Assembly (NCBI RefSeq): GCF_005869855.1
Contig: NZ_SZNH01000011.1
Span: forward strand, 1 to 64,000
Source: Nostoc sp. PA-18-2419
GTDB taxonomy: Bacteria > Cyanobacteriota > Cyanobacteriia > Cyanobacteriales > Nostocaceae
Reading direction: 5' to 3'
DNA: 64,000 nt
Under the pieces are notes generated by a model. The model was given only the letters and a program-made list of their open reading frames with translations, did no database searches and was not told where the DNA came from. This document shows, piece after piece, positions 45,752 to 63,584 of the stretch (positions within the stretch are counted from its first letter, which is position 1; the number at the start of each line of letters is the position of its first letter). The position numbers were made by a program, and so were the translations under genes.

Positions 45752-45777
45752 TACGGTAAACATGTTAGTTTACCGTA
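45752..45777. promoter_or_regulatory. regulon operator copy a
   Basis: TACGGTAA-N10-TTACCGTA with both half sites perfect; arms extend to AATACGGTAAA/TTTACCGTATT (11 bp, 45750-45760 and 45769-45779). It is 40 bases upstream of the ATG of the broken MFS gene and could also drive the methyltransferase and flavoprotein genes that follow. Confidence 0.75.
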
Positions 45778-45859
45778 TTATTGAAGGTGATTGCTTTGTG
45801 CGATCGCCTTAATTTGTCTTATATATTGTTAGCCTTCGATCCAACTAGCACTTCATAAC

Positions 45860-46828
45860 TTAATTGAATGCTGGTTCTGCTAACACCTTCTCGGCTTTTT
45901 GCTTGAGGACAGTTGGTAATTCAGCCGTTAACGGCTCGCCTTCAACTTTCTGCGAACGGAAACCATCAGGTCCGACTGGAATATCACCTGTAATGGTGGT
46001 GCGATAGAGTACGCGCTCAACTTCTATATGATCCAAATCCTGTGGGGCTAAATGCGAAGTGGCGCGGTTATCCCAAAATGCAATATCACCATTGTTCCAA
46101 CGGAAGCGAGTGGTATAAGCGGGTTTAGTGATTTGGTTGAAAAACAACTCCAGCAGCAGTTCGCTCTCTTGTGGTGACACATCAAGAATGTGCGAGGTGA
46201 AGCCAGGATTGACGAACAATGCACGTTCACCTGTCTCTGGATGAACGCGTACCACTGGGTGAATCGAAACCTGCGGATTGGCAGCAATGCGCTGGGCATA
46301 TTTGCTACTGCTAGGTATCCGTAAACGTGCATTGAACCGATGCTCGGCTTTCAATCCATCTGCTAGGGCGCGTAGGGGTGCAGATAGACCTTCATAAGCT
46401 GCAACTAGATTAGTCCATTGTGTGTCACCACCAAAACTAGGGACGTTAACTGCTCGCAGAATTGAACCCGCAGGTGGGTTAACAACAGCAGTTACATCAG
46501 TATGCCAACGACTTTCATAGCTGGTACGGCGTAGACCGTTGCGGCGCTCAAAGCGGCTGCGATCAATTGGTAAAATTTCAGAAAAGCCTTCTATCGGGTC
46601 ATCTTCGTGGGGATGCGCGTAGGTCACTTCACCAAAACGAGCCGTGAAGGCAATCTGTGCAGCATGATCGATGTTCTGATTGCGAAAGAAAATCACCTTC
46701 CACTTCAATAATGCTTGACGAATTTCTGCAACTGCTTCATCGTCCAGAGGACGCGAAAGATCCACGCCGTTGATTTGGGCACCAGTGAAACCAGAAGTCG
46801 GTTTAACTTCAATGTGTTTATAGCTCAT
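45860..46828 (-). CDS. tauD: TauD/TfdA family alpha-ketoglutarate dioxygenase
   Basis: A 322-residue non-heme iron enzyme. Iron ligands are His109 and Asp111 in RWHTDVT and the distal His in RATSHLAP; the ketoglutarate Arg is in RVLYRTTI. KPTSGFTGAQINGVDLSRPL and VIFFRNQNIDHAAQ are typical N-terminal blocks. Such enzymes hydroxylate taurine, other sulfonates or alkyl sulfate esters so that sulfite or sulfate falls off. It has a good site GGAGAATAAAC before the ATG and an operator copy 115 bases upstream, and stands apart as its own unit. Exact substrate (taurine or alkyl sulfate) cannot be told. Confidence 0.88.
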   Translation of the reverse strand: MSYKHIEVKPTSGFTGAQINGVDLSRPLDDEAVAEIRQALLKWKVIFFRNQNIDHAAQIAFTARFGEVTYAHPHEDDPIEGFSEILPIDRSRFERRNGLRRTSYESRWHTDVTAVVNPPAGSILRAVNVPSFGGDTQWTNLVAAYEGLSAPLRALADGLKAEHRFNARLRIPSSSKYAQRIAANPQVSIHPVVRVHPETGERALFVNPGFTSHILDVSPQESELLLELFFNQITKPAYTTRFRWNNGDIAFWDNRATSHLAPQDLDHIEVERVLYRTTITGDIPVGPDGFRSQKVEGEPLTAELPTVLKQKAEKVLAEPAFN

Positions 46829-46942
46829 GTTTATTCTCCAAAGCTTGATCTATGGGTGAATGTTTGTACTCGTTAGCTTCCTTTGTCAGATTTTTATTGA
46901 GTCCCAGCAATATACCAAAGAAGCATCCGTAGCTTAATATCA

Positions 46943-46968
46943 TACTTTAAATCGATAGATTTATCGTA
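46943..46968. promoter_or_regulatory. regulon operator copy d
   Basis: TACTTTAA-N10-TTATCGTA: 6 of 8 and 7 of 8 matches to the consensus half sites at the same 26-base span, 115 bases upstream of tauD. The remainder of the 520-base gap 46829-47348 has no gene that I can support; AT-rich DNA with an ACTATTAGTATAACTAATATT run at about 47241. Confidence 0.6.
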
Positions 46969-47348
46969 GTATAAAATGTTAAGAAAGTTCAGTCAAACCA
47001 GTTTGATAACTATGCAAGCTCTTAATTTACCTTAGATGAAATAGTCTGCCATCAGGAAATGCTCTCCAGCAAACAAACTTGCTTCCACACACTTAATTAA
47101 TTGCTGTACAAGGAGTGAAAAGGAATGCTATTTGGTTAGCGATTTACCACAAATTTATGCAGCAATTTTACTGAGCAGATTTAGCTTATACACATTAATA
47201 CAAAAAATCTGTACTGAAGAACACAATATCATGTTAAACTAACTATTAGTATAACTAATATTAAGTTTTGCGAAAAGAATGAGAGTTGACAATTAGTATT
47301 TATCTTTATTTATTGGCGATCGCTCATTTAATTAGTCAATTCTGCGTT

Positions 47349-48383
47349 CTACTTGCATTTAGTTATATCTTCGTTAAAAGTACTGTCCCAAAGTGGTTTC
47401 ACATCAACTTTTGTGGGAATTACACCTGCTTGAAAAAAGGTATCTGCAACCTTTTGCTCAGAAGCAATAGCTTCCTCAGAAACAGGAAGTACTTCTTGAG
47501 GACGCTGTTGTTGACCTTGCTGGGCATCCTGATAAACGATGTTTTGATCAACATCAATGGTCTTTGCATAATTCTTCGACCACTTCTTAAGATGAGATTC
47601 CCGCCAAGTTTGAGATTTTTGCAAGCGACAGAGAAAATCAGCGATCGCAACTTTCTTTTGCGGATCGGCGATCGCATCAGGTGAAGCAATAATTACGAAG
47701 TTACCGCTCAAAATATCTTTTGCAGATTCTAGCACCCGTGCCCCTTCTTTTTCGGCTTGGGGGATGGCATAACCGTAGGTAGCCCAACCATCAAGCTGTC
47801 CTTTACGAAAAGCCGAAAGCCCATCGGGTATTGATAAAGGAATTGCATTGATATCCTTCATCGTCAGCCCGACTTTTTCCAACATTTTAATCAGGAAGTA
47901 GTGGGCAGTTGTGGCTTTAACATAACCCACTTTTTTACCTTTCAGGTCAGCGATCGTTTTGGCAGTGGAGTCTTTGGGTACAAGTACAACTTGACCAATC
48001 GTCGGCCCTTTGAGAGTGGCAATAATTTTTACAGATGCTTTCGATTCAATCGCAAAAATCGGCGGAATTTCACTAGCTGAACCCAAGTCAATCGCACCAG
48101 CATTGATTGACTGTACCATCAAATTACCCCCAGTAAACTCAGTAAATTGAGTTTGATAAGGGAAATTATCTAGTCCAGCCCACTTTAAATTTAAGTCCCA
48201 ACCACCTTTATACTTAGCAACACGTAGTTGAGTTGTATTCGATACTGCGATTTTGGATGAGCCAGAATTAGCAGCGATCGTTGCCGGACTGGTAGACTTC
48301 ACCTCTGAGCAAGCCGTTGTTGCTAGGGCTAACAAGCAACCCAGAGATAAGAAAAAATTCTGCGATAGCCAATTGGTAGACAC
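47349..48383 (-). CDS. ABC transporter substrate-binding lipoprotein (sulfonate/nitrate type)
   Basis: A 344-residue periplasmic binding lipoprotein: hydrophobic LSLGCLLALATTAC with the lipobox Cys near residue 25, then LRVAKYKGGWDLNLKW, FTGGNLMVQSINAGAIDLGS (ligand cleft), TIADLKGKKVGYVKATTAH, and FRKGQLDGWATYGYAIPQ. This is the SsuA/TauA-like type II fold. I take the GTG at 48383; a TTG at 48419 is an alternative. It is the last gene of a four-gene minus-strand operon. No ATPase or permease gene lies in the window, so it must share those from elsewhere. Ligand probably an organosulfonate. Confidence 0.8.
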   Translation of the reverse strand: MSTNWLSQNFFLSLGCLLALATTACSEVKSTSPATIAANSGSSKIAVSNTTQLRVAKYKGGWDLNLKWAGLDNFPYQTQFTEFTGGNLMVQSINAGAIDLGSASEIPPIFAIESKASVKIIATLKGPTIGQVVLVPKDSTAKTIADLKGKKVGYVKATTAHYFLIKMLEKVGLTMKDINAIPLSIPDGLSAFRKGQLDGWATYGYAIPQAEKEGARVLESAKDILSGNFVIIASPDAIADPQKKVAIADFLCRLQKSQTWRESHLKKWSKNYAKTIDVDQNIVYQDAQQGQQQRPQEVLPVSEEAIASEQKVADTFFQAGVIPTKVDVKPLWDSTFNEDITKCK

Positions 48384-48429
48384 GTTAATTTTTGGGTATA
48401 AAAAGACAAGCAATAACAATAACCGCCAA

Positions 48430-49191
48430 CTACTCTAGTAAGTCTGGTTGTTCGCTCACAATTCGGTCGTAGAGTGGCTGAAAGCTAAACCAACCGCCAG
48501 AATGGGTTCCGACTTGGTTATGAGTAAAAGTTGCTGTTTCGTGGTCAATGGGAAATGGTTTGCCAGCTGCTTCTGCAAGCAGTTGGGCTTGAGCCGATCG
48601 CTCAAAAGAAATGTACCAAAAAGCAGCCTCGTCTACTGTTTCTCCCACTGTCAAAAAACCATGATTCCGCAGGATGACAGCTTTTTTGTCTGCCAAAGAT
48701 TCAGCAATTCTTTTACCCTCTGAAGTATCTAAAACTACACCTTTATAGTCATCAAAGAGAGCGTGGTCTTGATAAAAAGCACAAGCATCTTGAGTTAGGG
48801 GATCGAGCAGGCGACTAAGACTTGACCAAGATTTACCATACAGAGAATGAGCATGAGCAGCTGCAACTATATCAGGCCGTGCCTCATGAACCTGTGAATG
48901 AATGGCAAAGGCGGCACGATTGACAGGAGCATTACCTTTGACAACTTCTCCTTCTCTATCAACCAAAATCAAGTCAGAAACACGGATGTGACCAAAGTAC
49001 TTGCCAAGGGGATTTACCCAAAAATGGTCGGTAAACTCTGGATCTCTGGCAGTGATGTGGCCTGCTATTCCTTCGCTAAAGCCAAAACGAGCAAACAACC
49101 GAAATGCAGCAGCAAGGCGTTGTTTGCGGTGGAGTCGTTCTTTTTCAACTCGTTCAAAGACTGGCGGTTGTGGTCTAGTGAAATTTGGCAT
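48430..49191 (-). CDS. class II aldolase/adducin family protein
   Basis: A 253-residue metal-dependent aldolase-fold protein. Visible blocks: SEGIAGHITARDPE (substrate phosphate/carboxylate site), zinc ligands in AAAHAHSLYGKSW and a third His in ILRNHGFLTVGETV. Members cleave or decarboxylate sugar-like or short hydroxy acids. Its place inside an operon with sulfonate-binding proteins and SsuD suggests it handles the aldehyde or carbon skeleton left after desulfonation, or a C3 sulfonate itself; this is inference. Gaps to neighbours are 29 and about 46 bases. Confidence 0.85.
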   Translation of the reverse strand: MPNFTRPQPPVFERVEKERLHRKQRLAAAFRLFARFGFSEGIAGHITARDPEFTDHFWVNPLGKYFGHIRVSDLILVDREGEVVKGNAPVNRAAFAIHSQVHEARPDIVAAAHAHSLYGKSWSSLSRLLDPLTQDACAFYQDHALFDDYKGVVLDTSEGKRIAESLADKKAVILRNHGFLTVGETVDEAAFWYISFERSAQAQLLAEAAGKPFPIDHETATFTHNQVGTHSGGWFSFQPLYDRIVSEQPDLLE

Positions 49192-49220
49192 GATTTTCTC
49201 TTTCTTATTTCACAGGTAGA

Positions 49221-50330
49221 TTAAGCTATGGTTACTGTTGGTCGTTCTTGTCGTTGCACTTGTTGACGCACCAAAGGAATCACATCTCGTCCGTAAGCGA
49301 TCGCATCTTCCACTGGATCAAAACCGCGAATCAACAGTGTTGTCACGCCAGCTTTGTAGTAATCAAATAATGACTCTGCAACTTGTTCTGGAGTCCCTAC
49401 CAAAGCAGTAGTATTACCACGAGCGCCAGTAGCAGCTGCGATCGGTGTCCATAAACGCTTATCATGAATTTCGCTTTCCTGAGCAAAATCTAGCAACCGC
49501 AATGAACCAACAGCTTGAGGTCGTGCAGAAGCCTCCGGAGATAATTGAATCCCTGCCTTAGCGCGGGTTTCATTAATCCGTGAGAGAATATAATGCGCCT
49601 TTTCCCATGCTTTTGCTTCTGTTTCGCCCAAAATTGGACGCAAGGAAACACTAAACTGTAAATCTTTTCCAGGCGGTGCTGCGGCTTTCACCTCTGCAAT
49701 GCGTTGTTTAATAGCAGCTATGGGTTCTCCCCAAAACGCATAGACGTTACTGTGCTTCGCACCTACACCTACAGCAGCACCAGAAGCGCCCCCGAAATAT
49801 ATTGGAATATGTGGTTGCTGTAAAGGTTTAACTTCCGAAAATGCATCTTTGAGTTGGTAAAATTCTCCTTTATAATCGAAGGGTTCTTCACTCGTCCAAA
49901 CTCGCCGCACAACATCAAGATATTCATCGGTACGGCGATAGCGAGTATCATGATCGAGCCAATCACCATCGCGCTCTTGTTCGGCATCGCTTCCACCAGT
50001 AATGATATGCACTGCAACCCGACCATTAGAAAAATGATCTAATGTTGCTAATTTACGGGCGGCTAAAGTCGGAGCCACAAAACCCGGTCTATGTGCAAGT
50101 AAAAACTTGAGTCGTTCTGTTGCAGCAGCCACATAACTAACTACATTAAAGCCATCCGGACCTGTAGAGCTATAACCAACTAGCACTCGGTCAAAGCCAC
50201 CATCTTCATGGACTTTCGCAAATCTGCGGACATAATCTAAGTCTATACTTCCCCCCGTGATAGATACGGTAGGGCTATGTAATTCTGACGCTTCTCGCGT
50301 ACCAATCATGCCAATAAATTCTACAGGCAT
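49221..50330 (-). CDS. ssuD: FMNH2-dependent alkanesulfonate monooxygenase
   Basis: A 369-residue bacterial-luciferase-fold enzyme that splits alkanesulfonates into aldehyde and sulfite using reduced FMN and oxygen. Characteristic blocks: GGFDRVLVGYSSTGPDGFNV, LKFLLAHRPGFVAPTLAARKLATLD, GRVAVHIITGGSDAEQ with DGDWLDHDTRYRRTDEYLD, and PIYFGGASGAAVGVGA. Length close to known SsuD. Ribosome site GGAGCAATAAT before the ATG. Located 57 bases after a binding-protein gene in the same operon. A separate flavin reductase is not seen in the window. Confidence 0.9.
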   Translation of the reverse strand: MPVEFIGMIGTREASELHSPTVSITGGSIDLDYVRRFAKVHEDGGFDRVLVGYSSTGPDGFNVVSYVAAATERLKFLLAHRPGFVAPTLAARKLATLDHFSNGRVAVHIITGGSDAEQERDGDWLDHDTRYRRTDEYLDVVRRVWTSEEPFDYKGEFYQLKDAFSEVKPLQQPHIPIYFGGASGAAVGVGAKHSNVYAFWGEPIAAIKQRIAEVKAAAPPGKDLQFSVSLRPILGETEAKAWEKAHYILSRINETRAKAGIQLSPEASARPQAVGSLRLLDFAQESEIHDKRLWTPIAAATGARGNTTALVGTPEQVAESLFDYYKAGVTTLLIRGFDPVEDAIAYGRDVIPLVRQQVQRQERPTVTIA

Positions 50331-50387
50331 ATTATTGCTCCAAATCTTTGTTATTTAAAGGTGATTGTTTGTGTTTCCCTATTTTTC

Positions 50388-51461
50388 CTACTTAGGGGCA
50401 GTAGTTTCCAACGGACACACTGCTGTTGCAATATCTACTCGTTGCGGAATAATTTTTTGCTCTAGTAACCAGTCAGCTGTTTTTTGAAGATTGGCAATAT
50501 CTTCAGTGTTAGGAAATACATAAGACTCTGGGCCTCGATTTTTAGTCACTTGCTTGGCTACAGCATCCGAGATTTTTAACTCTTTAACTAAAAAATCTGA
50601 TGCTGCATCGCTATGCTGATTTAGCCATTCACCATTCTGGCTCAAACCAGTCAGAGCAGCTTTGACTGCTACTGGATTATCTTTAGCTGCATCACTACGA
50701 ACAACCAGAATGCCGTAGGTAGGAGCAGGATGTGTAGTAGTAATTCTTCGCGCCTGATGCTCTAATTGGGCAATAGAAATATAAGGTTCCCAAACTGCCC
50801 ACGCATCAACAGAACCTTGATATAGAGCAGGTGCGGCATCATTTGGCGATAGATAAACTCGCTGGACTTTATATGAAGGAATATTTTCTTTTTCCAAAAC
50901 TTTTAATAACAGATATTCCCCTGCACCACCTTGATTGACTGCAACTTTTTTACCTATTAAATCAGTAGGTTTACGAATAGCAGAATCACCGCGAACTAAA
51001 ATGGCATTACTCAAAGAATTTAGAACAGGACGCTGTACAGAACCAATACAAAGAGGCTGTCCAGCAGCAATTCCAGAAATCGAAGGAATATCACCACAGC
51101 CGCCAATATCCGCTCGATTACCATTGAGAGAACTTAAAAGCGTCGCGCAACGGTCAAATGGCCCACTCCATTCAACTTTAATATTTTGCGTTGCTAACTG
51201 ACGTTCTAGCTCACCTCGTTGACGCGCAATGGGAATAATCCCGCCTTTTTGGTAGCCCAAGCGAATCACATTGTTTTTCTCTGTAGTTTTGGTACTGAGT
51301 GTTTTTAAGGAGGAATCTTGGTTAGCTGCGGCATTCATAGCTGTTTGTTGGCTGCAACTAGAAGCCATCAATCCAAAAAAAGACGTTGTAACTGCAAAGA
51401 TTTTACTAACAGAATATTTTTGTTTGTGCGGAAAGCGGCGTTCTGTAAAATAATTCACCAC
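50388..51461 (-). CDS. ssuA: aliphatic sulfonate-binding lipoprotein of an ABC transporter
   Basis: A 357-residue periplasmic lipoprotein: signal with TTSFFGLMASSC, then IRLGYQKGGIIPIARQRGELERQL (conserved first lobe of SsuA), FDRCATLLSSLNGNRADIGG, KKVAVNQGGAGEYLLLKVLE and PALYQGSVDAWAVWEPYIS. Start is the GTG at 51461 with AGGAG six bases before it. It heads the operon ssuA-ssuD-aldolase-binding protein. An operator copy is 66 bases upstream. SsuB and SsuC partners are not in the window. Confidence 0.88.
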   Translation of the reverse strand: MVNYFTERRFPHKQKYSVSKIFAVTTSFFGLMASSCSQQTAMNAAANQDSSLKTLSTKTTEKNNVIRLGYQKGGIIPIARQRGELERQLATQNIKVEWSGPFDRCATLLSSLNGNRADIGGCGDIPSISGIAAGQPLCIGSVQRPVLNSLSNAILVRGDSAIRKPTDLIGKKVAVNQGGAGEYLLLKVLEKENIPSYKVQRVYLSPNDAAPALYQGSVDAWAVWEPYISIAQLEHQARRITTTHPAPTYGILVVRSDAAKDNPVAVKAALTGLSQNGEWLNQHSDAASDFLVKELKISDAVAKQVTKNRGPESYVFPNTEDIANLQKTADWLLEQKIIPQRVDIATAVCPLETTAPK

Positions 51462-51526: not shown

Positions 51527-51552
51527 TACGGTAAGTTTATACAATTACCGTA
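51527..51552. promoter_or_regulatory. regulon operator copy b
   Basis: Perfect half sites TACGGTAA-N10-TTACCGTA; the arms extend to 12 bp, TAACTACGGTAA (51523-51534) and TTACCGTAGTTA (51545-51556). It stands 66 bases upstream of ssuA, in the 686-base gap before the formylglycine-generating enzyme gene. Confidence 0.8.
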
Positions 51553-51787: not shown

Positions 51788-51813
51788 TACGGTAAATTTA
51801 TATATATACAGTA
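51788..51813. promoter_or_regulatory. regulon operator copy c
   Basis: TACGGTAA-N10-ATACAGTA: left half perfect, right half 6 of 8, same 26-base span. It lies 335 bases upstream of the formylglycine-generating enzyme gene, with the plus-strand sulfatase unit as likely target. Bases 51830-52147 between it and the gene hold nothing else that I recognise. Confidence 0.55.
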
Positions 51814-52147
51814 TTTTTGAATAACAAGTCAGGAATCAGAATTCAGCATGAATTAGAGTCTGAGTGGTAGTGAGGGTTGAAATGCCCCACTTTATTGTTA
51901 TGTATTCTGCATTTTCCTTTAACTAAATTATTTTGATTAAAGGTCAATATGTCTCAATTTTTAATCAAGGTATTAATCTTTATAAGTTTTACATTGTAAG
52001 TATTTGAGCCAAAGTTAGTTTTAATTTTGATGTGTTTTATTCGCAGTAAATTACGACTTGATGCAAGCGCTGTAAAAGCTTGTAATAATTTTGCATGTTA
52101 TTGATGAAAAGCGTATATGTAGCCCCACCGAGGGGGTAATTTTTAGC

Positions 52148-53158
52148 ATGTCCAAGCCAGGGAAAAGTTTTTTAAGATTATTGTTCACTACAGGAGTGGC
52201 GATCGCACTTTTATTCATCCCACATTCCGCTGCCGCTACCCTAAATCCCTGTCCACAAGAAATGGTAATGATCCCAGCAGGGACATTCACAATGGGGTCA
52301 GATAATTCTGGTTTTGTGGAAGAACAATCGGCTTTTGATGTCACAGTTAGTTCCTTTTGTATTGATAAATATGAAGTGACAAATGCACAGTTCGCAGCAT
52401 TTGTCAAAGCAACAGGGTATGTAACAGTTGCAGAGCGGCCTTTACCCAAAGAACAGTTTCCCGACTTACCAGATGAGCAGAGATTACCAGGTTCCTTGGT
52501 GTTTGAAATGGCACAACCAGGAGCAAAGCAGCTGAGTTGGTGGCATTGGACGACTGGGGCGAATTGGCGGCATCCCTTTGGCTTGGGAAGTGCAATTGCC
52601 ACAAAAGACAACTTACCAGTTGTTCATATTGCCTATGAAGATGCCGCAGCCTATGCCCAATGGGCAGGAAAATACTTACCCAGCGAAGCTCAGTGGGAAT
52701 ACGCCGCCCGTGGCGGGTTAGACCGTGCAACTTATACATGGGGCGATCGCTACTCTGAAAAAAAAGCCAACACCTGGCAAGGAACCTTTCCCTTTTTCAA
52801 CAATAAAAGCGATGGTTACGTAGGTATCGCTCCCGTTGGTTCCTTTCCACCCAACGGTTATGGTCTTTACGACATGGCAGGTAATGTCTGGGAATTGACC
52901 TCAGATTTGTTTGGGGTAGGACATGACCAGAAAAACTATAGTGTCGATCCCATAGGCCCAGAACAAAGTTTTGACCCCAACAAACCCACAGAAAATGTCT
53001 TACACACCATCAAAGGAGGTTCTTACCTTTGCGCGCCTAACTATTGCAGCCGCTTCCGCCCAGCAGCACGAGAATCTCAAGCTCCCGACACCGGAACTAC
53101 GCATATCGGATTTCGTTTAATTAAGAGCTTGAATCAAGTTCAACCAATTACCAATTAG
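52148..53158 (+). CDS. formylglycine-generating enzyme (SUMF1/FGE family), exported
   Basis: A 336-residue protein with a signal peptide (FLRLLFTTGVAIALLFIP, cut near AAA). The FGE-sulfatase domain fills the rest: MVMIPAGTFTMGSD, FCIDKYEVTNAQFAAFV, LPSEAQWEYAARGG, GLYDMAGNVWELTSD and GGSYLCAPNYCSRFRPAAR. Cys295 and Cys300 match the copper-binding redox pair of true FGE (human Cys336/Cys341), so it should be active rather than a structural relative. It converts the Cys of sulfatases into formylglycine. The arylsulfatase gene starts four bases after its stop, clearly one operon. Confidence 0.92.
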   Translation: MSKPGKSFLRLLFTTGVAIALLFIPHSAAATLNPCPQEMVMIPAGTFTMGSDNSGFVEEQSAFDVTVSSFCIDKYEVTNAQFAAFVKATGYVTVAERPLPKEQFPDLPDEQRLPGSLVFEMAQPGAKQLSWWHWTTGANWRHPFGLGSAIATKDNLPVVHIAYEDAAAYAQWAGKYLPSEAQWEYAARGGLDRATYTWGDRYSEKKANTWQGTFPFFNNKSDGYVGIAPVGSFPPNGYGLYDMAGNVWELTSDLFGVGHDQKNYSVDPIGPEQSFDPNKPTENVLHTIKGGSYLCAPNYCSRFRPAARESQAPDTGTTHIGFRLIKSLNQVQPITN

Positions 53159-53161
53159 TTT

Positions 53162-55501
53162 ATGTTGCATTTACTTTGGCGATCGCTGATTTTATCTATA
53201 GTCATTATTTTATTGACGGCTAATAACCCTGCCCTAGCAGCCACATCAAAGGTTTTACCCATTCCCCAACCAGACTTCAAGGGCAAAATTGGCATCACCT
53301 ACAAAGACTCAAAACCAGATTTTCCCCAACCGAACGCTGCCCCAGCCAAAGCCCCCAATGTTCTACTAGTGATCCTAGATGATGTTGGCTTCGGACAAGC
53401 TGGTACCTTTGGCGGCCCGGTGGAAACTCCTAACTTAACTCGTTTAGCCGAAAGAGGATTACGCTACAATCAATTCCACACCACAGCCCTTTGCTCACCT
53501 ACCAGGGCAGCCCTGTTAACTGGACGCAATCACCATTCAGTCAATACAGGGGTAGTTGAGGAATTGGCCACAGGTTATCCTGGCTACACAACAATTTTGC
53601 CCAAGAGTGCTGCTACCGTCGCCGAAGTCCTGCGACAAAACGGCTATAATACAGCTGCTTTCGGTAAATGGCACAACACACCAGACTATGAAACCAGCGC
53701 CGCTGGGCCTTTTGATCGCTGGCCTACAGGATTAGGATTTGAGTACTTTTACGGTTTTCTGGGTGGTGATACTAATCAGTGGAGTCCAGCCTTAGTCGAA
53801 AATACGAAACGAGTCGAGAAACCAGCCAATAACCCTGATTACCACCTGACTCCCGACTTAGTAGACCATGCGATCGCCTGGATTCGCAACCAACAATCTA
53901 TTGCCCCTGACAAACCCTTTTTCACCTATCTCGCCACTGGAGCCACCCATGCACCCCACCACGCCCCCAAAGCTTGGATTGACAAGTACAAAGGCAAATT
54001 TGACCAAGGGTGGGATAAATTGCGCGAAGAAATCTTTGCGCGTCAAAAACAACTGGGTGTAATTCCTGCGAATGCCCAACTAACACCCCGCCCCCAAGAA
54101 CTGCCGGCTTGGGATTCCCTTTCAGCAGATCGAAAGAAACTCTCTGCCCACATGGCAGAAGTATTTGCTGGATTTCTAGCGCACACAGATTATGAAATTG
54201 GACGCTTAATTGACGCAGTTGCCCAACTCGGTGAACTAGACAACACTTTAGTGATCTATGTCGTGGGAGATAACGGTGCTAGTGCAGAAGGCGGTTTAAC
54301 AGGTACCGTTAACGAATTGAAATTCTTCAACGGTGTACCCGAAAATCTACCACAACTGCTTGCTTCCTATGATGACTTGGGTAGCCCCAAGACATTCAAC
54401 CATTCTCCCGCCGCTTGGGCATGGGCAGTCAACACTCCCTTTCAATGGACAAAGCAAATCGCCTCTCACTTTGGTGGAACTCGTAACCCCTTAGTAATTT
54501 CTTGGGGCGAAGGCATTAAAGACCAAGGTGGAATCCGCAGTCAATTCCATCACGTAATTGATATTGCACCCACCATTTTAGAAGCAACGGGAATTACAGC
54601 CCCTACAGAAGTGAATGGGGTCAAGCAACAACCAATCGAAGGAACTAGTCTGGTTTATACCTTCGATCGCCCTGATGCTCCATCCCATCGTGAAACACAG
54701 TACTTCGAGATGTTGGGCAACCGAGCGATTTACGATCACGGATGGGTGGCGGCGGCTCGTCATGGTCGCTTACCTTGGGAACGTACTGCAAAAGGTGACT
54801 TTGACACAGATCCGTGGGAACTGTACAACATTGCAGAAGATTTCAGCGAAGCGAACAACCTGGCTCAAGAAAATCCAGACAAGCTAGAAAAACTGCAAAA
54901 ACTGTTTTTAGAAGAAGCCCGTAACCACCAAGTCTTACCATTAGACGATCGCGCCCTAGAACGGTTTGATGTCAAAATTCGCCCCGGTTTCACCACCGGA
55001 CGCACAAGCTTTACTTATTATCCTGGTGTATTTGGCATCCCAGAAGGTAGCGCCCCAAATCTAAAAAACAGATCCTTCAGCATCACAGCTAATGTGGAAA
55101 TTCCCGAAACTGGGGCAGAAGGTATCCTCTTAACTCAGGGCGGACGTTTTGCTGGTTGGAGTTTTTTCCTTGAGGATGGCAAGCCCACCTATGTCTACAA
55201 CTATGCCAATGCTGTTCGCTACATTATTCAATCCCCTGAAAAACTGCCCACAGGTAAATCTAGATTACGGTTCGACTTTGATTATGACGGTGGCAGTGTA
55301 GGTGCAGGGGGAACTGGAAAATTATTCATCAACCAACAGCAGGTAGCTGAAGGTCGAATCGAAAAAACCATCGCTTATCGTTTAGCCCTAGATGAAACCT
55401 TTGATGTCGGTAGAGACACAGGTACTCCGGTCGTTGACACCTATCAAGTACCCTTTGCCTTCACTGGTAACTTACAGCAAGTCAGCCTTGAGTTGAAGTA
55501 A
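53162..55501 (+). CDS. arylsulfatase (type I, formylglycine)
   Basis: A 779-residue exported sulfatase that frees sulfate from sulfate esters. Signal peptide ([18 protein letters not shown]). Metal site in [15 protein letters not shown], active-site Cys111 in [12 protein letters not shown] (CxPxR motif), AFGKWHN, then [11 protein letters not shown] for the second metal half. Residues beyond about 580 form a beta-sandwich domain ([19 protein letters not shown]) as in long bacterial arylsulfatases. It is co-encoded with its activating FGE, 3 bases apart, and followed by a BASS transporter. Substrate may be aromatic or steroid-like sulfates, or algal polysaccharide pieces; sequence does not decide. 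Confidence 0.92.
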
Positions 55502-55539
55502 GTAATGGAGATTGGGCATTGGGGACTTGTCCATTTTCC

Positions 55540-55757
55540 TCAAATACTCATTAATGAAGCTCAAATACTCATTAATGGAGTTCAAATACTCATTAATGGA
55601 GTTCAAATACTCATTAATGAAGCTCAAATACTCATTAATGAAGCTCAGATACTCATTAATGAAGCTCAAATACTCATTAATGAAGTTCAAATACTCATTA
55701 ATGAAGTTCAAATACTCATTAATGAAGCTCAAATACTCATTAATGAAGTTCAAATAC
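55540..55757 (+). repeat. tandem array, 10 units of 21 bp plus partial
   Basis: Ten units TCAAATACTCATTAATGAAGC (variants GGAGT, GAAGT) at 55540-55749 and a partial eleventh. Each unit contains TCATTAATGA, a perfect 10-bp palindrome, except two units with TCATTAATGG. The period is two DNA turns. It lies between the sulfatase stop and the BASS start. All frames are open through it, because 21 is divisible by three, and each unit has an ATG in frame with the BASS gene. Confidence 0.9.
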
Positions 55758-55802
55758 CCAATTTCTATGCCCCGTGCCCAATCCCCAATTCCTATTAAAA
55801 TC

Positions 55803-56675
55803 ATGAATGAAATTTTGGTAGTAATCGACAAATTAGCGCTTCTCACATTCATTGTTTTCACTATGTTGGGTGCGGGTTTACGCCTAACCGTACAAGAGAT
55901 TTGGGAACCACTCCGCAACCGCCGTCTGGTGATATTATCTCTGGTGACAAATTTTGTACTGGTGCCACTTTTTGTCTACCTGCTGCTGCAAGTTGTACAT
56001 TTAAGCGAACCACTCAGAGATGGTTTACTGGTCATGGCAGTAGCATCAGGCCCCCCAGCTTTACCAAAACTTGCTCATATAGTCAAGGGGAATATAGCTT
56101 TTTCCGTAGGGTTAATGATGTTGCTGATGTTGGGCACAATCATTTACATGCCGATTGTATTACCTTTAGTGGTAGAAGGCGTACAAATCAACTCTTGGGA
56201 GATTGCGGAACCCTTATTATTAATGATGGTCAGCCCATTAGTAATTGGGCTATTTATCAAAGCTAAATTTCCAGCGATCGCTATGACTCTTCAGCCGTTT
56301 TTGTTCAAATTATCTAATGCTGGATTACTTTTAGGTCTAATAGTCAGACTGGCAGTTCATACTAACGATATGATTGCCTTATTAAAAACTGGTGCAATCT
56401 TTGTTTGTGCTGTATTTATTATCTTTTCTTTTAGCGTCGGCTATCTTTTAGGCGGCCCTGGTATTGACACCCAAAGAGTGCTAGGAGTCGGAACAGCTCA
56501 ACGCAATTTTGCCGCCGCATTATTAGTAGCTACAAGCAACTTTGAAGATCCCAGCGTGGTGAGCATTATCATGGTGACGAGTATATTAATGATGGTTACA
56601 GTTCTCATTGCCGGGCCAAAGTTTACAGAAATAGATCAGCCAACTAATGCAAAGATAGAACAGGTGGAAGTTTGA
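55803..56675 (+). CDS. BASS-family (bile acid:sodium symporter-like) transporter
   Basis: A 290-residue membrane protein with about nine hydrophobic helices: LALLTFIVFTMLGAGLRLT at the start, VTNFVLVPLFVYLLLQVV, the unwound crossover region GPPALPKLAHIVKGN, and the second crossover GTAQRNFAAALLVATSNF. This is the BASS fold that carries organic anions with sodium. The ATG at 55803 is the usual start for the family; the frame is open through the upstream repeat array, so longer forms are possible. It lies in the sulfatase unit, so it may take up the freed alcohol/acid or another organic anion. Confidence 0.85.
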   Translation: MNEILVVIDKLALLTFIVFTMLGAGLRLTVQEIWEPLRNRRLVILSLVTNFVLVPLFVYLLLQVVHLSEPLRDGLLVMAVASGPPALPKLAHIVKGNIAFSVGLMMLLMLGTIIYMPIVLPLVVEGVQINSWEIAEPLLLMMVSPLVIGLFIKAKFPAIAMTLQPFLFKLSNAGLLLGLIVRLAVHTNDMIALLKTGAIFVCAVFIIFSFSVGYLLGGPGIDTQRVLGVGTAQRNFAAALLVATSNFEDPSVVSIIMVTSILMMVTVLIAGPKFTEIDQPTNAKIEQVEV

Positions 56676-57559: not shown

Positions 57560-58798
57560 TTAAAAGAATCCTCTCTGCGGTAATGGTGTACCGTTAATCT
57601 CGTAATCGCCGATCGCACGAGCTTTAAAATGATTTGGGTTGTGTGAGGACAAAGTACGAGCGTTGCGCCAGTGACGATCAAAGTTTGAGCTTTTTTTAGT
57701 TGTAGAAGCCCCACCAACTTCAAACAACAAGGTAGCCGAACGTAATGCCAAATCATCAACTATCAATTTGGCTTTGGATGCACTCAGAGAAGTTGCCAGT
57801 GCCACAGCCGTCTCTGCCTCTTCACCCTGAGCTTGGGCAGCAGGGAGGCGATCGAGACCATCCGCTGCTGCTAAAACAATCGCTTCGGCAGCAAAGGCAT
57901 TGGCGGCAATCTGCCCCACAGTCTGCTGCAAGATTGGGTCTTCTGAGGCTTGCTCGGATACAGCATGGTAGAAAGTGCGGGGTCTGTTGCGAATGAGGGC
58001 TGTAGCATCACGCAGAACGCTGCAAATAATACCGGCGTTGATGGCAGTCAGGAATAATTGCGGGACGATATTATAGGGCAGGTCGTCTTTGTCTGTGTCT
58101 GTCTCAAAAATTACTTCTTCAGCCTCTACACGGACATTCGTGAAGGTGGTCGTTCCGGTACCTGTGAGTCTTTGTCCAAAACCGTCCCAGTCGTCCACCA
58201 GTTCAAGACCTTCGCGGTTAGTCGGAATGAGTATATACGCTGTAGTGCCATCAGGTGTTAACACACGCACAAAAATCAAGTCTGCATAAAGGCTGCCAGT
58301 GCTGTAATATTTCTTTCCATTCAGACGATAACCGTCGCCATCGGGTGTCAATTTTGTATTCACGACTTGGCGACCGCCTGATCGCTTGGCTTCTAGTTCG
58401 GTGGAAGCGAGTCCAATAATCGCACCATCAGCAACGGCTTTGAGCCAACGGCGATTCCTTTGGGTGCGCTCAGAACGCAAAATCCGCTCTGTAACAGAAA
58501 AATGATTCCGCACAATGTGAGCGACGTTCGGGTCAGCATCCCCCAGCCGAATCACGACCTCGAATAATTCCCGCGCCGTGCTACCGCCACCACCTTCAGC
58601 TACCGGGATTCGCAATGCACCCAACCGAGAACGCCGGATTAATTCAACCACATCAAAAGGCAGGATGCGATCGCGATCGCGTTCACTTGCCCCCAGAGCA
58701 ATAAAATCAAAAAGCTGCTGGAGTTCCGGCGAGTTTGCTCTCACAGGAGCCGAAAACTGAATTGTTGTATCTGCAAGCTTCTCTGGACTCTTAATCAT
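57560..58798 (-). CDS. SfnB/DszC-like acyl-CoA-dehydrogenase-fold sulfur oxidoreductase
   Basis: A 412-residue flavoprotein of the acyl-CoA dehydrogenase fold. Family blocks: RLGALRIPVAEGGGGS, ADPNVAHIVRNHF (in place of the dehydrogenase Glu region), LTPDGDGYRLNGKKYYSTGSLYAD, and the ending SSNFDRHWRNARTLSSHNP, which is the DRxxRNxRTxxxHxP motif of the SfnB/DszC/desulfurisation group that uses reduced FMN and oxygen. Probable sulfone or related organosulfur oxidation. Operator copy e lies 205 bases upstream and GGAGATAAAAACTA precedes the ATG. GC content is above the window average. Confidence 0.82.
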   Translation of the reverse strand: MIKSPEKLADTTIQFSAPVRANSPELQQLFDFIALGASERDRDRILPFDVVELIRRSRLGALRIPVAEGGGGSTARELFEVVIRLGDADPNVAHIVRNHFSVTERILRSERTQRNRRWLKAVADGAIIGLASTELEAKRSGGRQVVNTKLTPDGDGYRLNGKKYYSTGSLYADLIFVRVLTPDGTTAYILIPTNREGLELVDDWDGFGQRLTGTGTTTFTNVRVEAEEVIFETDTDKDDLPYNIVPQLFLTAINAGIICSVLRDATALIRNRPRTFYHAVSEQASEDPILQQTVGQIAANAFAAEAIVLAAADGLDRLPAAQAQGEEAETAVALATSLSASKAKLIVDDLALRSATLLFEVGGASTTKKSSNFDRHWRNARTLSSHNPNHFKARAIGDYEINGTPLPQRGFF

Positions 58799-59002: not shown

Positions 59003-59028
59003 TACTAAAAATCTACCGAGTTACCGTA
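59003..59028. promoter_or_regulatory. regulon operator copy e
   Basis: TACTAAAA-N10-TTACCGTA: right half perfect, left half 5 of 8, span 26 bases. It is 205 bases upstream of the SfnB-like gene on the minus strand. The rest of the gap 58799-59418 holds no gene I can support. Confidence 0.6.
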
Positions 59029-59418
59029 GTTTGATACTCCCAAATTTTCTCCAAGTTGTCAATCTGTTTTAACGTCTTTTTGCGGGAAAGACACATTCGT
59101 TCTTTTTTGCTAAAGGAACGAAACCTGCATTGTTTTTCAACTTTTACAATAAGTCCAATCATAAATTTTACAGAGAATAGTAGTCACTGCCGCCGCTTGG
59201 TAGTATGTGATGCTTCAACAGCGTAAAGGTAATAGGAAAGTTGTTTCTGACCTGCCTAAATAAACCAAACAGCGACTAATCAGCTAGGCTGAAACATACT
59301 TACCAAACTTGATATATCTTTCTGAGGAGGGACAGACTTACTCAAACCTCACGAGAATATAGAAAAAGTGAGTTTGCTTGTCATAACCGATAAAACTTGT
59401 AGTCTGGAGTTAATAATA

Positions 59419-59973: not shown

Positions 59974-60615
59974 TAGTAATGAGTGGCAGAGGGCGCGTCA
60001 TTCATGGGAGCGTAATATAATGATTAGCTAGTTTATGCCCAGGCTTGTATTTCAGCCTTTATTGTTAAAGGTAAATTATCAAGTTTACTATCCATGTAAA
60101 TATGGCATTTTCTTGTGTTATTGCTGAAGCTGTCAGTAGTCATTGTAAAAAACCTCTAGCAATGTCATTTTTGAAGCTAAACTTATAGCAATAACACCCC
60201 GACTTATAAAGTTTGTATTCCCTCTGTTTGCCTTTGACAACTGAGGGATTTGTTTTTAATTACTAACTGAAAGCGTCCATTAGACTTATTGCATAAGTGG
60301 GAAAAAGGGAGAAAGGTTTTTGTATTTTCCCTTTTCCCTTTGACCATAAGAGTGCAAAAAGTAATGAATGCAAGAGGTCTATTCTCTGACTTGCAATTAT
60401 TCGGGAAACTCTGAGATATTTCCTCTCCAGCTTGGTCATATTTAGAACTAGTTTCTCTACAAGTTCAAAAAGATTCAATGCACTGTTCCAGTCTCGGTCA
60501 ATAACCAACCTACAGGAACAACTATAGAACGCGAATTGCAAAGGTTTTCTCAACCCCCTGCCCTGCGATCGCTGCGAGTAACTGTCAGTAGACCGAAAAG
60601 TTTTGCGATCGCTGT
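59974..60615. other. intergenic with transposase (TnpB) remnant
   Basis: On the minus strand at about 60420-60552 one reads CSCRLVIDRDWNSALNLFEL, the zinc-knuckle and last catalytic Asp region of TnpB proteins of the IS891/IS1341 type (normally CSCG-x-DRDWNSA); the rest of the gene is absent. A purine/pyrimidine repeat (GAAAAAGGGAGAAAGG against CCCTTTTCCCTTTG) is at about 60298-60342. Otherwise nothing seen. Confidence 0.55.
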
Positions 60616-61953
60616 TTACACTAAACTGGTTTGGAAGAAGCAATTAGCAGGGCGCGCCAATCCGAGATTTTCGCGCAGGGTTTTACCCTCATACTCTTTG
60701 CGGAAAATTCCGCGCCGTTGGAGTTCTGGCACAACTTTGTCAACAAAATCATTCAGCCCTTCAGGAAGAAAAGGAAACATGATATTGAAACCGTCAGAAC
60801 CTTCCTCAGTCAGCCATTGCTCCATTTCATCAGCGATCGTTTGAGGTGTGCCGACGAAGGCTAGTCCGCCGTAACTGCCAATGCGTTGCGCCAGTTGTCG
60901 AATAGTCAAGTTTTCACGTTGGGCTAAGGCTATTACTCTTTCTCGTGAAGAGTGACCAGCGTTAGTCGGTGGGATTTCTGGCAAGGGCCCGTCCGGATCA
61001 AAGCCGGAAACGTCGTAGCCAAGCGCGCCATTTAAACTGGCGATCCCACTGTCATAATGTACTAGGTTGTCTAAATGAAGACGCTTGGTATGTGCTTCGG
61101 CAACAGTTTCTCCCACAATGACTAAAACACCTGGAAGGATTTTTATACTGTCTGGGTCACGTCCGATCGCCCGCGCCCGTCCCTTAATGTCTGCAAATAA
61201 AGCTTTGCCAGCCTCCAGATTACCAGCAGGTGCAAACACAGCTTCGGCTGTTTCTGCGGCTAATTGCCGTCCGGCTTCGGATGCACCCGCTTGGACAATT
61301 AGCGGCCAACCCTGGACTGGTCTAGCAATGTTCAATGGCCCCCGCACCGAGAGATATTTTCCCTTATGATCCAGAACGTGAAGCTTTGCGGGATCAAAAT
61401 AAATCCCTGCTTCCACGTCCCGAATAAACGCATCGTCAGCAAAAGAATCCCAAAGACCTGTGACGACATCATAAAATTCTCTAGCCCGCCGGTAGCGTTC
61501 GTCATGCTCTACCTCCTCTTCTAAGCCGAAATTGAGCGCTGCGTCTGGATTGGCTGTGGTGACGATGTTCCAGCCAGCGCGACCGCCACTTATATGGTCG
61601 AGAGAGGCGAAGCGACGAGCGATGTGGTAAGGCTGGTCATAGGTTGTGGAAGCGGTGGCTACTAGTCCGATGTGTTCGGTGACGGTGGCGAGGGCAGAAA
61701 GCAGGGTAAAAGGTTCAAAGGATGTAACAGTATGGCTGCGTTTGAGCGCGTTGATTGGCATATTCAGCACCGCTAAGTGATCGGCCATGAAGAATGCGTC
61801 AAACTTGCCCTGTTCTAGTTTTTGGATGAATTTTTTCAGTGCCTGGAAGTTGAAATTGGCATCAGGTATAGCCCCAGGATAGCGCCAAGCGCCTGTATGT
61901 ATGCTTACCGGACGCATGAATGCACCTAGTTTTAATTGCTTCGATCTGCTCAT
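60616..61953 (-). CDS. FMN-dependent monooxygenase, NtaA/SnaA/DmoA/SoxA family
   Basis: A 445-residue luciferase-fold enzyme of the two-component NtaA/DmoA group: LKLGAFMRPVSIHTGAWR, KFDAFFMADHLAVL, STTYDQPYHIARRFASLDHIS, GRAGWNIVTTANPDAALNFG, HDERYRRAREFYDVVTGLW and PLIVQAGASEAGR, GGLAFVGTPQTIADEM. Members desulfurise dibenzothiophene sulfone (DszA), dimethyl sulfide (DmoA), or oxidise EDTA-like amines. In this sulfur island an organosulfur substrate is likely. Good ribosome site CGGAGAGATA. Operator copy g is 124 bases upstream, now separated from the gene by an inserted 70-nt repeat. Confidence 0.88.
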   Translation of the reverse strand: MSRSKQLKLGAFMRPVSIHTGAWRYPGAIPDANFNFQALKKFIQKLEQGKFDAFFMADHLAVLNMPINALKRSHTVTSFEPFTLLSALATVTEHIGLVATASTTYDQPYHIARRFASLDHISGGRAGWNIVTTANPDAALNFGLEEEVEHDERYRRAREFYDVVTGLWDSFADDAFIRDVEAGIYFDPAKLHVLDHKGKYLSVRGPLNIARPVQGWPLIVQAGASEAGRQLAAETAEAVFAPAGNLEAGKALFADIKGRARAIGRDPDSIKILPGVLVIVGETVAEAHTKRLHLDNLVHYDSGIASLNGALGYDVSGFDPDGPLPEIPPTNAGHSSRERVIALAQRENLTIRQLAQRIGSYGGLAFVGTPQTIADEMEQWLTEEGSDGFNIMFPFLPEGLNDFVDKVVPELQRRGIFRKEYEGKTLRENLGLARPANCFFQTSLV

Positions 61954-61970
61954 TATCTCTCCGTATATAT

Positions 61971-62040
61971 AATTCGTAATTCGTAATGACGCTCGTTCCG
62001 ACGCTCCTCCGTCGCTAACGCTTCGCTATCGCTACCGCTT
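61971..62040 (-). repeat. 70-nt repeat, inverted copy of 3167-3236
   Basis: Exact reverse complement of the copy at 3167-3236 over 70 bases. It sits 18 bases upstream of the monooxygenase start and between that gene and operator copy g, so it may alter the promoter of the gene. Confidence 0.85.
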
Positions 62041-62076
62041 CGAAGACAGTAATTCGTAATTAAAACATCTAAAAAA

Positions 62077-62102
62077 AGGTTTAATTCAAGTGGTTTACAG
62101 TA
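62077..62102. promoter_or_regulatory. regulon operator copy g
   Basis: AGGTTTAA-N10-TTACAGTA: right half 7 of 8, left half close to the TACTTTAA form (5 of 8), same span. Weakest of the seven on its own; supported by its position 124 bases upstream of the minus-strand monooxygenase gene. Confidence 0.45.
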
Positions 62103-62154
62103 TTTTGTCTAATTTCTCAAATGATACATCTTTTGCCGATTTAGTCTTAAATGC

Positions 62155-62403
62155 GCTGCTCTTTGCTACCTGTTCAGTCTTTAGTTTCTTCTACTTCAAA
62201 CTCTGCTTTTTGTAAATATTTCAAAGCTTGGGTGACTTTTTATTTTCTAATTTCATGTGAAACTGACTGGCTGAATTTTGATAGTTATCTTTAGACCAAG
62301 TAGCAGCCTTTTTTAGCTCTTGTATAATGGTCACAGAAATACCCAAGGGCTGTAAGGGCTTTTCTAAATTTACTTGCGCTTTCACAATATTCAACAGCGC
62401 CAT
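62155..62403 (-). pseudogene. sulfonate-binding protein (SsuA-like) remnant
   Basis: A minus frame from 62403 reads MALLNIVKAQVNLEKPLQPL then GISVT, which is the first conserved lobe of SsuA-type binding proteins (xLNxxKAxGxLEKRLxPxGxSVTW). It then jumps to IIQELKKAATWSKDNYQNSA, which matches the helix near the end of such proteins, and stops at 62221; the other frame then reads VTQALKYLQKAEFEVEETKD before a stop at about 62155. The middle 200 or so residues are deleted. It directly follows the SfnG-like gene (13-base overlap), so an sfnG-ssuA pair once existed here. Confidence 0.6.
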
Positions 62404-63476
62404 ACCTTCAAATTAGCTATGGCTTCACTATCTACTGTTAACGGTTGCACTCTTGGTATAATTTCCGCAGCAAAACGCTCCATTTCTGTGGCAAAAGGCT
62501 GGAATTGCAGCATGAAAGTATCAACTCCTACTTTGGTAAACTCAGCAATCCGATGGGCTACAGTTTCATAGCTACCTACCAATCCTGCTGCTGTACCGCC
62601 ATTGCTTCCCACACCGGGGTACTTAGCCATATTTTTAAACATAACTACTTCCGAATCTACGCCTTTGAGTAGTTCCGAGCGATCGTCTCGTGCTAATACC
62701 ATTGCTCTCAAGTTTTGATATTCCGCTTCTGCCTCTTCGTCTGTGGGTCGAGCAATCACAAAAGCTGACATAGCAAAGCCCAAAGGTTGAGAGCGAAACT
62801 GAGTTTTTTTAGCAATTTGAGCAATAGTTTCCCGGATAGCTTCAATCGGACGACCGTTGAGGAAAAATGTATGCGCTTGTTTTACGGCTAGTTGTTGGGC
62901 TGCTTCTGACTCTCCTCCCACATATACGCGCGGATGTGGTTTGGCTATAGGTGGGGGATTAAACTGCAAATCGTTGATTTGAAAATAATTACCGTGGAAA
63001 TTGACTTTTTCTCCACTCCATAGGGCTTTTACGACGTTAATCCATTCATCTGAATAGCGATAACGCTCATCGTGAGGAAAAAAATTTATCCCTGTTTTTT
63101 CCATTTCTGGCTTGAACCAAGCACTGACTAGGTTAATAGCAAAACGTCCACCGCTAATCGCATCAATACCTAAAGCCATCTTTGCTAAGACGGCTGGATG
63201 GAAAAGTAAAGGCTTGACAGCTGCAATAATCTCGATGGATTTTGTTGCTTCAGCCAGGGCTGCTGCTGCTGTCCAAGTTTCTAGCTGATCAAGTTCTTGG
63301 TTCCTGGGATTGATGATGTGTTGTGCAATTAAAGTCGTGTTAAATCCACACCTTTGGGCCAACTGAATTAAATTCTTGGCTCGTGAGTAACTAGCATCAC
63401 GAGCCTCAAGAGGATGGTTCATGACGCCGCAGTTACCGTAAACGGGAATCCAAATCCCGTAACGTGGCTCAGACAT
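62391..63476 (-). CDS. sfnG: dimethylsulfone monooxygenase-like (SfnG family)
   Basis: A 361-residue FMNH2-dependent luciferase-fold enzyme. The start MSEPRYGIWIPVYGNCG, then LDQLETWTAAAALAEATKSI, FHPAVLAKMALGIDAISGGR, INLVSAWFKPEMEKTGI, HDERYRYSDEWINVVKALW and PHPRVYVGGESEAAQ match SfnG, which converts dimethylsulfone to methanesulfinate. A methanesulfinate/sulfonate product could be passed to SsuD-type enzymes. It is divergent from a close paralogue with a shared operator between them. Confidence 0.88.
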   Translation of the reverse strand: MSEPRYGIWIPVYGNCGVMNHPLEARDASYSRAKNLIQLAQRCGFNTTLIAQHIINPRNQELDQLETWTAAAALAEATKSIEIIAAVKPLLFHPAVLAKMALGIDAISGGRFAINLVSAWFKPEMEKTGINFFPHDERYRYSDEWINVVKALWSGEKVNFHGNYFQINDLQFNPPPIAKPHPRVYVGGESEAAQQLAVKQAHTFFLNGRPIEAIRETIAQIAKKTQFRSQPLGFAMSAFVIARPTDEEAEAEYQNLRAMVLARDDRSELLKGVDSEVVMFKNMAKYPGVGSNGGTAAGLVGSYETVAHRIAEFTKVGVDTFMLQFQPFATEMERFAAEIIPRVQPLTVDSEAIANLKVWRC

Positions 63477-63558
63477 AGCTTTCCAGAACCTTTGTCATAG
63501 GCACTAATAGGATGTTTAGCAGTAAATGTTTAACTTATTGGGCAATTCGTTTATTTAC

Positions 63559-63584
63559 TACTTTAAATCAGTCAATTTACCGTA
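63559..63584. promoter_or_regulatory. regulon operator copy f, shared by divergent genes
   Basis: TACTTTAA-N10-TTACCGTA: right half perfect, left half 6 of 8. It lies almost exactly in the middle of the 188-base gap, 83 bases from the start of the minus-strand SfnG gene and 81 bases from the start of the plus-strand copy. Confidence 0.75.

Follow-up and report, generated by a model that had tools for sequence, protein, structure and literature searches.

A 26-base palindromic operator of a cyanobacterial sulfur regulon and a CymR-like Rrf2 protein as its candidate reader

Introduction

The closest described counterpart of the system considered here is CymR-CysK of Bacillus subtilis and Staphylococcus aureus, in which CymR, a protein with the Rrf2 fold, acts in complex with CysK, and O-acetylserine serves as the signal (partial texts of PMC2940859, PMC4961446, PMC12895370 and PMC9338935). 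A toxin that mimics CysE was described to put a GYGI tail into CysK (partial text of PMC12895370). Solved Rrf2-DNA complexes, in which the operators of IscR, RsrR and NsrR were studied as fragments of 29, 39 and 23 bp, respectively, have the wings of the protein on the operator ends, and the central 7 bp of the NsrR operator are free of base contacts (partial text of PMC9338935). The present study deals with a 26-base palindrome that recurs in an organosulfur island of Nostoc sp. PA-18-2419 and with the protein that may read it. The whole stretch of DNA analyzed, 64,000 nucleotides of contig NZ_SZNH01000011.1 (positions 1 to 64,000, forward strand), is called the window. Genomes, loci and contigs are labeled G, L and C, the window's own genome being G000 and the window lying on its contig C5.

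Genes of the same target class (ssu, tau and sfn) are controlled in Proteobacteria by CysB/Cbl, SfnR and TauR, which are LysR, sigma-54-dependent or MocR-type proteins with other sites. To our knowledge, sulfur sensing in cyanobacteria is poorly known beyond CysR, a member of the CRP family. CysR is named as a cyanobacterial sulfur regulator in the title of Nicholson and Laudenbach 1995 (as cited in the partial text of PMC8049743), and for Limnospira a cysARPWT cluster with CysR was described (partial text of PMC8400943). In the open-access literature, no earlier report was found of the motif presented here or of an Rrf2 sulfur regulator in cyanobacteria.

Results and Discussion

Copies of the palindrome in the window

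A pattern scan of the whole window for TACGGTAA-N10-TTACCGTA gave six matches with at most three mismatches, compared with a chance expectation of 0.24 (mean of 100 dinucleotide shuffles, maximum 2). They are listed here together with a weaker copy:

45752..45777, operator site, perfect 8+8 palindrome (0 mismatches), between tauD and the MFS remnant, 93 bp upstream of the MFS open reading frame (ORF)
46943..46968, operator site (3 mismatches), 115 bp upstream of tauD
51527..51552, operator site, perfect (0 mismatches), 66 bp upstream of the ssuA-LLM-aldolase-ssuA genes
51788..51813, operator site (2 mismatches), upstream of the genes for formylglycine-generating enzyme (FGE), arylsulfatase and transporter, 278 bp to the longest ORF
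59003..59028, operator site (3 mismatches), 205 bp upstream of the SfnB-like acyl-CoA dehydrogenase gene
62077..62102, weak half-site, doubtful, upstream of the DmoA-like monooxygenase gene (matrix score 9.1)
63559..63584, operator site (2 mismatches), between the divergent SfnG-like monooxygenase gene (left) and an ORF cut by the window end (right), whose LLM-type identity is the call of the first-pass annotation

A scoring matrix was built from 67 sites of the window's genome, its genus and G004 of another family. The six window sites are among them, so that their scores of 30.4-38.6 are not independent. The sole other position in the window at a score of at least 8 is 62077; in 100 dinucleotide shuffles of the window a score of at least 20 was never reached, and one of at least 8 on average 0.08 times. 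The copy at 62077 reads AGGTTTAA-N10-TTTACAGTA and is a half-site at best and doubtful, because it scores far below the other six and has more than three mismatches. The first-pass annotation of this DNA, made from the letters alone, had counted seven copies, six of which hold; its two perfect copies, its exact 26-base geometry and its impression that the window contains no further ones were all borne out. It had also taken the right half as constant TTACCGTA, whereas this half reads ATACAGTA at 51788 and TTATCGTA at 46943, and both halves vary across the window copies.

The 67 sites define a longer palindrome, approximately AAAATACGGTAAaTYKATMRAtTTACCGTATTTT, which is symmetric: its flanks are rich in A, its TAC/GTA ends hardly vary, and its middle is conserved in part. 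The inner GTA and TAC stand 12 apart, and the conserved stretch is 26 bases long.

Sites across the genome

When the 7.62 Mb genome was scanned, ten sites appeared at no more than one mismatch versus none for the reversed control, so the random scatter that the first-pass annotation had named as an objection to its operator was not found. At up to three mismatches the reversed control gives more matches than the pattern, and this count is therefore uninformative. A 32-position model returned 85 strand-matches at E<=10, which correspond to roughly half that number of places (scoring covered the best 150 of 4393 first-look candidates). Within the fetched regions, 28 of the 29 places with a matrix score of at least 23, 15 of them seeds of the matrix, lie outside mechanically called ORFs of at least 70 aa.

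By our reading of the annotations, the first gene is a recognised sulfur gene at 13 of these 29 places. Sites precede sbpA for sulfate (C46:390830, C81:14537), ssuA (C5:51527, C5:68320, C84:241593), ssuD (C15:82121), tauD (C5:46943, C73:144539) and tauE (C28:119963), and further sulfur genes in first position are those for FGE-sulfatase, the SfnB-like and SfnG-like proteins and another luciferase-like monooxygenase (C41:45462). A cysE/cysK cluster is also preceded by a site. Other first genes encode an MFS transporter, a NIL protein, a CRP-family protein, an alcohol dehydrogenase (ADH), an aldo/keto reductase, a dienelactone hydrolase and acetyltransferases.

Conservation in other cyanobacteria

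Matches at E<=0.02 occurred in all 17 genomes of the genus that were examined (9 to 54 strand-matches each) and in 3 of 12 genomes from other families. Forty further sites were fetched among the matches listed, 39 from the genus and one from G004, and at 18 of them the gene directly downstream is at least 60% identical to a site-bearing gene of the window's genome (ssuD, tauD, the ssuA operon, FGE-sulfatase, ADH, OprB porin, FAD reductase, NIL and DUF1932). Conservation upstream of orthologous genes, as foreseen by the first-pass annotation, is hence found in other Nostoc and in other families. As at 46943, sites lie upstream of tauD homologs in L160, L170, L178, L181 and L252; homologs of the 51527 site are present in L158 and L247, and those of the 51788 site in L153 and on a plasmid of Nostoc sp. 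UHCC 0302, where the site precedes FGE by 241 bp. No site accompanies the FGE homologs of Leptolyngbya and Synechocystis plasmids. Conservation rates are biased where loci were fetched for having a site; the Rrf2 loci treated below were fetched by protein and form the fair part.

An exact search with the 20 fixed bases of the core in 84,980 species found 32 stretches, 31 of them cyanobacterial, some of which are loci already counted among the earlier sites. These 31 are mostly from Nostoc, and also from Calothrix, Oculatella, Elainella, Pseudanabaena, a Leptolyngbyaceae bin and others; the single non-cyanobacterial stretch, from a Bacteroidales bin, lies inside an open frame. In other families the targets are sbpA with permease genes, cysA-like ATPases, cysE, cysK, tauE and a CRP gene. 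Since sites stand there in front of sulfate and cysteine genes, the organosulfur regulon of the first-pass annotation, well founded for ssu, tau and sfn genes, has to be widened to a general sulfur regulon that includes sulfate.

It might be objected that palindromic, intergenic repeats in many copies are mobile or structural elements (terminator-like, REP-like) and not operators. However, the palindrome is conserved together with its short flanks, in contrast to part of the middle, which varies, and the copies stand before functionally related genes in different genomes, which leaves this explanation with a practically negligible probability. We regard it as secure that the palindrome is the operator of a general sulfur regulon of cyanobacteria.

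Plasmid pNe_5 of Nostoc edaphicum CCNP1411 (L333, 66000-114000), a locus chosen by protein homology and not by motif, bears seven sites scoring at least 20, all outside the listed genes, compared with none in 50 shuffles. The organosulfur island on this plasmid includes many homologs of the window genes and has operator sites of its own, and for this reason such islands are probably mobile.

A candidate regulator next to cysK

According to the first-pass annotation, the window lacks a regulator gene. Genes of the Rrf2 and CRP families were indeed not found there, but an OmpR-type response regulator is present beside the sulfur island:

40586-41269, OmpR-type response regulator
39111-40589, kinase-like ORF, with the OmpR-type response regulator

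This protein is the DNA-binding regulator recognised in the scan of the window ORFs (among the matches listed, 25 of 42 families) and could in principle control the island beside it. Against such control, sites occur genome-wide and in other families, and, in the loci examined, the response regulator had no match at E<=1e-20 and the kinase a single distant one. OmpR-type sites are, moreover, usually direct repeats. Its control of the island is very improbable.

A gene for a candidate regulator, as had been anticipated, was found elsewhere in the genome. An Rrf2-family gene (G000:C28:124657-125109) is arranged in a row with cysK and diverges from cysE, beyond which follow a CRP gene and a convergent NIL gene. 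Its own promoter contains a site of 20 bits, 17 bases upstream of the likely start, and a half-site further upstream. The protein matches the Rrf2 domain PF02082 (E=7.5e-35), and its closest known structures are PDB 4cic (E=1.4e-22) and CymR 2y75 (E=2.2e-17); the predicted model (mean pLDDT 84) superimposes on 2y75 with a target-normalised TM of 0.88 and an rmsd of 2.0 A (Foldseek). IscR holds its [2Fe-2S] cluster by three cysteines and one histidine. This ligand set is absent from the alignment of the Nostoc protein, the only cysteine of which is located in the C-terminal helix, and likewise no Fe-S ligand cysteines occur in its sequence. The protein terminates in MYYI. Across the loci examined, a tail of this kind, MYYI or MYFI, is shared by 43 of 44 distinct Rrf2 members of the group (leaving out two rows that run off their locus), and the tail of CysE is GAGI in 12 of 13 distinct sequences.

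Two types of Rrf2 gene, A and B, were distinguished. Type B promoters (at least 60% identity, fetched by protein) have a site at five of seven loci (G000, G094, G077, G058 and G091). Another family contributes three genomes, all of one genus, in each of which the sole site with no more than one mismatch is found 116-117 bp ahead of an Rrf2-cysK pair, and a fourth such pair (G055) has sites 35 and 215 bp upstream. Autoregulation alone was considered as a pointer to the regulator, and is weakened as such by the same site also standing before CRP genes. A type B paralog (66% identity) was observed near ssuD in Nostoc foliaceum (L147 = L276), with a site directly upstream.

Upstream of type A Rrf2-cysK a different conserved element, approximately CAAACyCCrGTGGAGAACCGGrGTATAmT, overlaps the likely -10 region in several cyanobacterial families (L056, L121, L122, L125, L126, L131-L134, L136-L141 and L331). 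It is probably a separate operator.

Rrf2, CRP or a third protein

Strong matches to the operator were found in 24 of 100 genomes of the order, a count made with stricter filters that misses some sites (G001, G011, G092). MYYI-type Rrf2 is present in all 24 versus 37 of the 76 others (61 of 100 overall), and a CRP homolog at E<=1e-30 in 23 of the 24 (58 of 100 overall), so that co-occurrence alone is not decisive; neither these figures nor the Fisher values below take phylogeny into account.

The CRP-family protein beside cysE (PtrA/CysR-like, G000:C28:126249-126836) deserves consideration as a direct, CysR-like activator, for which the site at its own gene would mean autoregulation. The precedent of CysR and the homologs in nearly all strong-match genomes speak for it, as do the promoters of CRP genes: when the 20 best CRP loci were taken from the 58 genomes possessing a homolog, 14 of the 18 that come from genomes with Rrf2 had an upstream site scoring higher than any in 200 shuffles. 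CRP is also the commonest regulator near sites outside Nostocaceae, with 7 of 66 neighbours versus 2 for Rrf2, although these loci were partly chosen for lying near CRP or Rrf2.

The geometry of the operator points in another direction. The recognition helix of this CRP, GSTRVTITR, is nearly that of NtcA, GSTRVTVTR. The NtcA site is GTA-N8-TAC, and sites of the CRP/NtcA type are inner palindromes with recognition triplets about 6-8 bases apart, a spacing that the 12 bases between the inner GTA/TAC pair and the conservation over 26 bases do not match. Absence tests with sbpA covered 24 selected genomes, 13 of which yielded an sbpA gene (6 of 10 with Rrf2 and without CRP, 5 of 7 with CRP and without Rrf2, 2 of 7 with neither), and gave sites in 3 of 6, 1 of 5 and 0 of 2 genomes, respectively. 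The site before sbpA is kept in G002, G008 and G056, which have no CRP homolog at E<=1e-30 and all possess type A MYYI Rrf2, and it is missing in four of the five CRP-bearing genomes without Rrf2 (G083, G095, G086 and G019; eight loci). Two of these, G086 and G095, also have no site before the CRP gene, although the difference between 14 of 18 and 0 of 2 is not significant (p=0.08). The absence tests make CRP less likely as the reader, and taking all points together we consider a direct reading of the operator by CRP unlikely.

Another possibility is a third, unlinked transcription factor, for which Rrf2, CRP, cysE and cysK would merely be conserved targets. A palindrome of this length also fits other dimeric families (TetR, GntR), and the site-free type A promoters and the sbpA site of G092, both described below, speak for it. 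It is opposed by the presence of MYYI Rrf2 in all 24 strong-match genomes and by the neighbours of the sites (66 matched of 73 selected): among the matches listed (25 of 66 families) the regulators are CRP, Rrf2 and MarR-model proteins, the last of which we take to be cross-matches of CRP. No CysB/Cbl, SfnR or TauR type is among the same listed families. An unlinked factor appears rather unlikely.

This leaves Rrf2, working with CysK, as the candidate reader, an assignment to which we give somewhat better than even odds. Besides the neighbour count outside Nostocaceae, several observations weigh against it. The curated CymR equivalog model of NCBIfam (NF047409) scores the Nostoc protein at 94.7 bits, below its cut-off of 195 bits; the protein is proposed to work like CymR but does not fall within the curated family. 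The site is missing from two of the seven type B promoters, those of G001 and G033, which belong to one genus. None of 26 type A promoters has one, though it was expected, and several non-Nostoc genomes with sites possess type A Rrf2 only; either type A binds the operator without autoregulation, therefore, or another protein does. Among the genomes with Rrf2 and without CRP, G003 and G088 lack the sbpA site and G073 is marginal. Conversely, a good sbpA site is present in G092, which has no MYYI Rrf2 and, under the same E-value rule, counts as CRP-bearing; with G092 included the contrast of 3 of 6 versus 1 of 5 is not significant (p=0.55). In the G092 assembly no cysK match was found at E<=1e-60 either, whereas two copies each occur in two further genomes of the genus, which makes an assembly gap or joint loss likely. 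Unlike in NsrR sites, positions T10 and A13 in the middle of the motif show fair conservation, too. Finally, repression is deduced from site position alone.

Proposed mechanism and comparison with known systems

With start positions inferred by homology, the distance from site end to start is 6-9 bases for CRP (four promoters), 17 for Rrf2 (five) and 40-45 for ssuD (seven). Repression is proposed because the sites lie near the inferred gene starts, where a repressor would sit. The sites, their conservation, the gene order, the fold and the tails are observed, whereas binding by Rrf2, repression, a partnership with CysK and O-acetylserine as signal are inferred, as follows. The reader would be a dimeric, cluster-free Rrf2 repressor working like Bacillus CymR. 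With enough sulfur, CysK would hold the MYYI tail of the Rrf2 dimer and thereby stabilise it, and the dimer would occupy the operator near the transcription start and block the genes for sulfate, sulfonate, taurine and sulfone use together with the gene of the CRP-type regulator. When sulfur is short, O-acetylserine made by CysE would accumulate and loosen the partnership with CysK, and the genes would open. CysE, with its GAGI tail, and Rrf2, with its MYYI tail, would compete for the same CysK pocket. Within the window, six promoters of the organosulfur island would be switched in this way. A single dimeric regulator for all units, as the first-pass annotation had suggested, is consistent with the conservation of the sites, but the DmoA unit has no good site.

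Taken as a whole, the reading that a CymR-like Rrf2-CysK pair with its own 26-base operator controls sulfate and organosulfur acquisition in cyanobacteria, that CysE and the repressor compete for CysK, that the pair sits above a CRP-type second regulator, and that mobile organosulfur islands of the kind considered relevant to moss symbiosis have been captured by it in Nostoc, is given a probability of about 0.5.

The Nostoc protein shares with CymR the Rrf2 fold, the lack of an Fe-S cysteine set, predicted targets in cysteine and sulfur supply and cysK as genetic partner, and the C-terminal M[YF]YI is common to it and the relatives 4cic and 3lwf. It differs from CymR in its score against the curated model, in being encoded with cysK and divergent from cysE, in a putative 26-base operator of its own, and in a predicted regulon that includes tau, ssu, sfn, sulfatase and a CRP gene. 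With IscR, RsrR and NsrR it has the winged-helix dimer fold in common; unlike the Nostoc protein with its single cysteine, these bind Fe-S clusters, and their targets differ. The wing contacts at operator ends described for such complexes (partial text of PMC9338935) would suit a motif that is most conserved at its ends. Cyanobacterial CysR is comparable in regulating sulfur, and a CRP homolog beside cysE carries a site here, yet operator geometry, recognition helix and the sites persisting in three genomes without a CRP homolog at E<=1e-30 argue against CRP as the reader.

A scannable operator predicts the sulfur regulon gene by gene in any genome, and it suggests a regulator as well as a signal, namely O-acetylserine acting through CysK. 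If true, the CymR-CysK logic would be placed outside Firmicutes, and organosulfur islands would be tied to the global sulfur status.

Genes of the island and minor observations

The organosulfur island in the window comprises the following genes:

45096..45659, minus strand, MFS transporter remnant, 187 aa
45860..46828, minus strand, TauD-family dioxygenase
47349..51461, minus strand, SsuA-like substrate-binding protein, LLM monooxygenase (alkanesulfonate-monooxygenase-like), class II aldolase, SsuA-like substrate-binding protein
52091..56675, plus strand, FGE, arylsulfatase, bile-acid:sodium-symporter-like transporter
57560..58798, minus strand, SfnB-like acyl-CoA dehydrogenase family protein (TIGR04022, 305 bits, below the curated cut-off of 430.9)
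60616..61953, minus strand, NtaA/DmoA family FMN monooxygenase (TIGR03860, above cut-off)
62391..63476, minus strand, SfnG-like LLM monooxygenase (TIGR04021, 248.6 bits, below the cut-off of 382.95)

The MFS homolog of Nostoc sp. MG11 (L268) is intact with 408 aa and has an operator site in front, arranged as at 45752. Between the sulfatase and the symporter-like gene (55540-55760), ten near-identical direct repeats of 21 bases (AAATACTCATTAATGAAGCTC) were observed.

Genes for photosystem II-like proteins, KDPG-aldolase and Na/Pi-transporters adjoin some sites in the genomes studied. In two Nostoc genomes (L156, L249) a strong site has a gene of a photosystem II family in Pfam (CP43/antenna type) at a distance of about 200 bp, and light harvesting might be linked to sulfur status.

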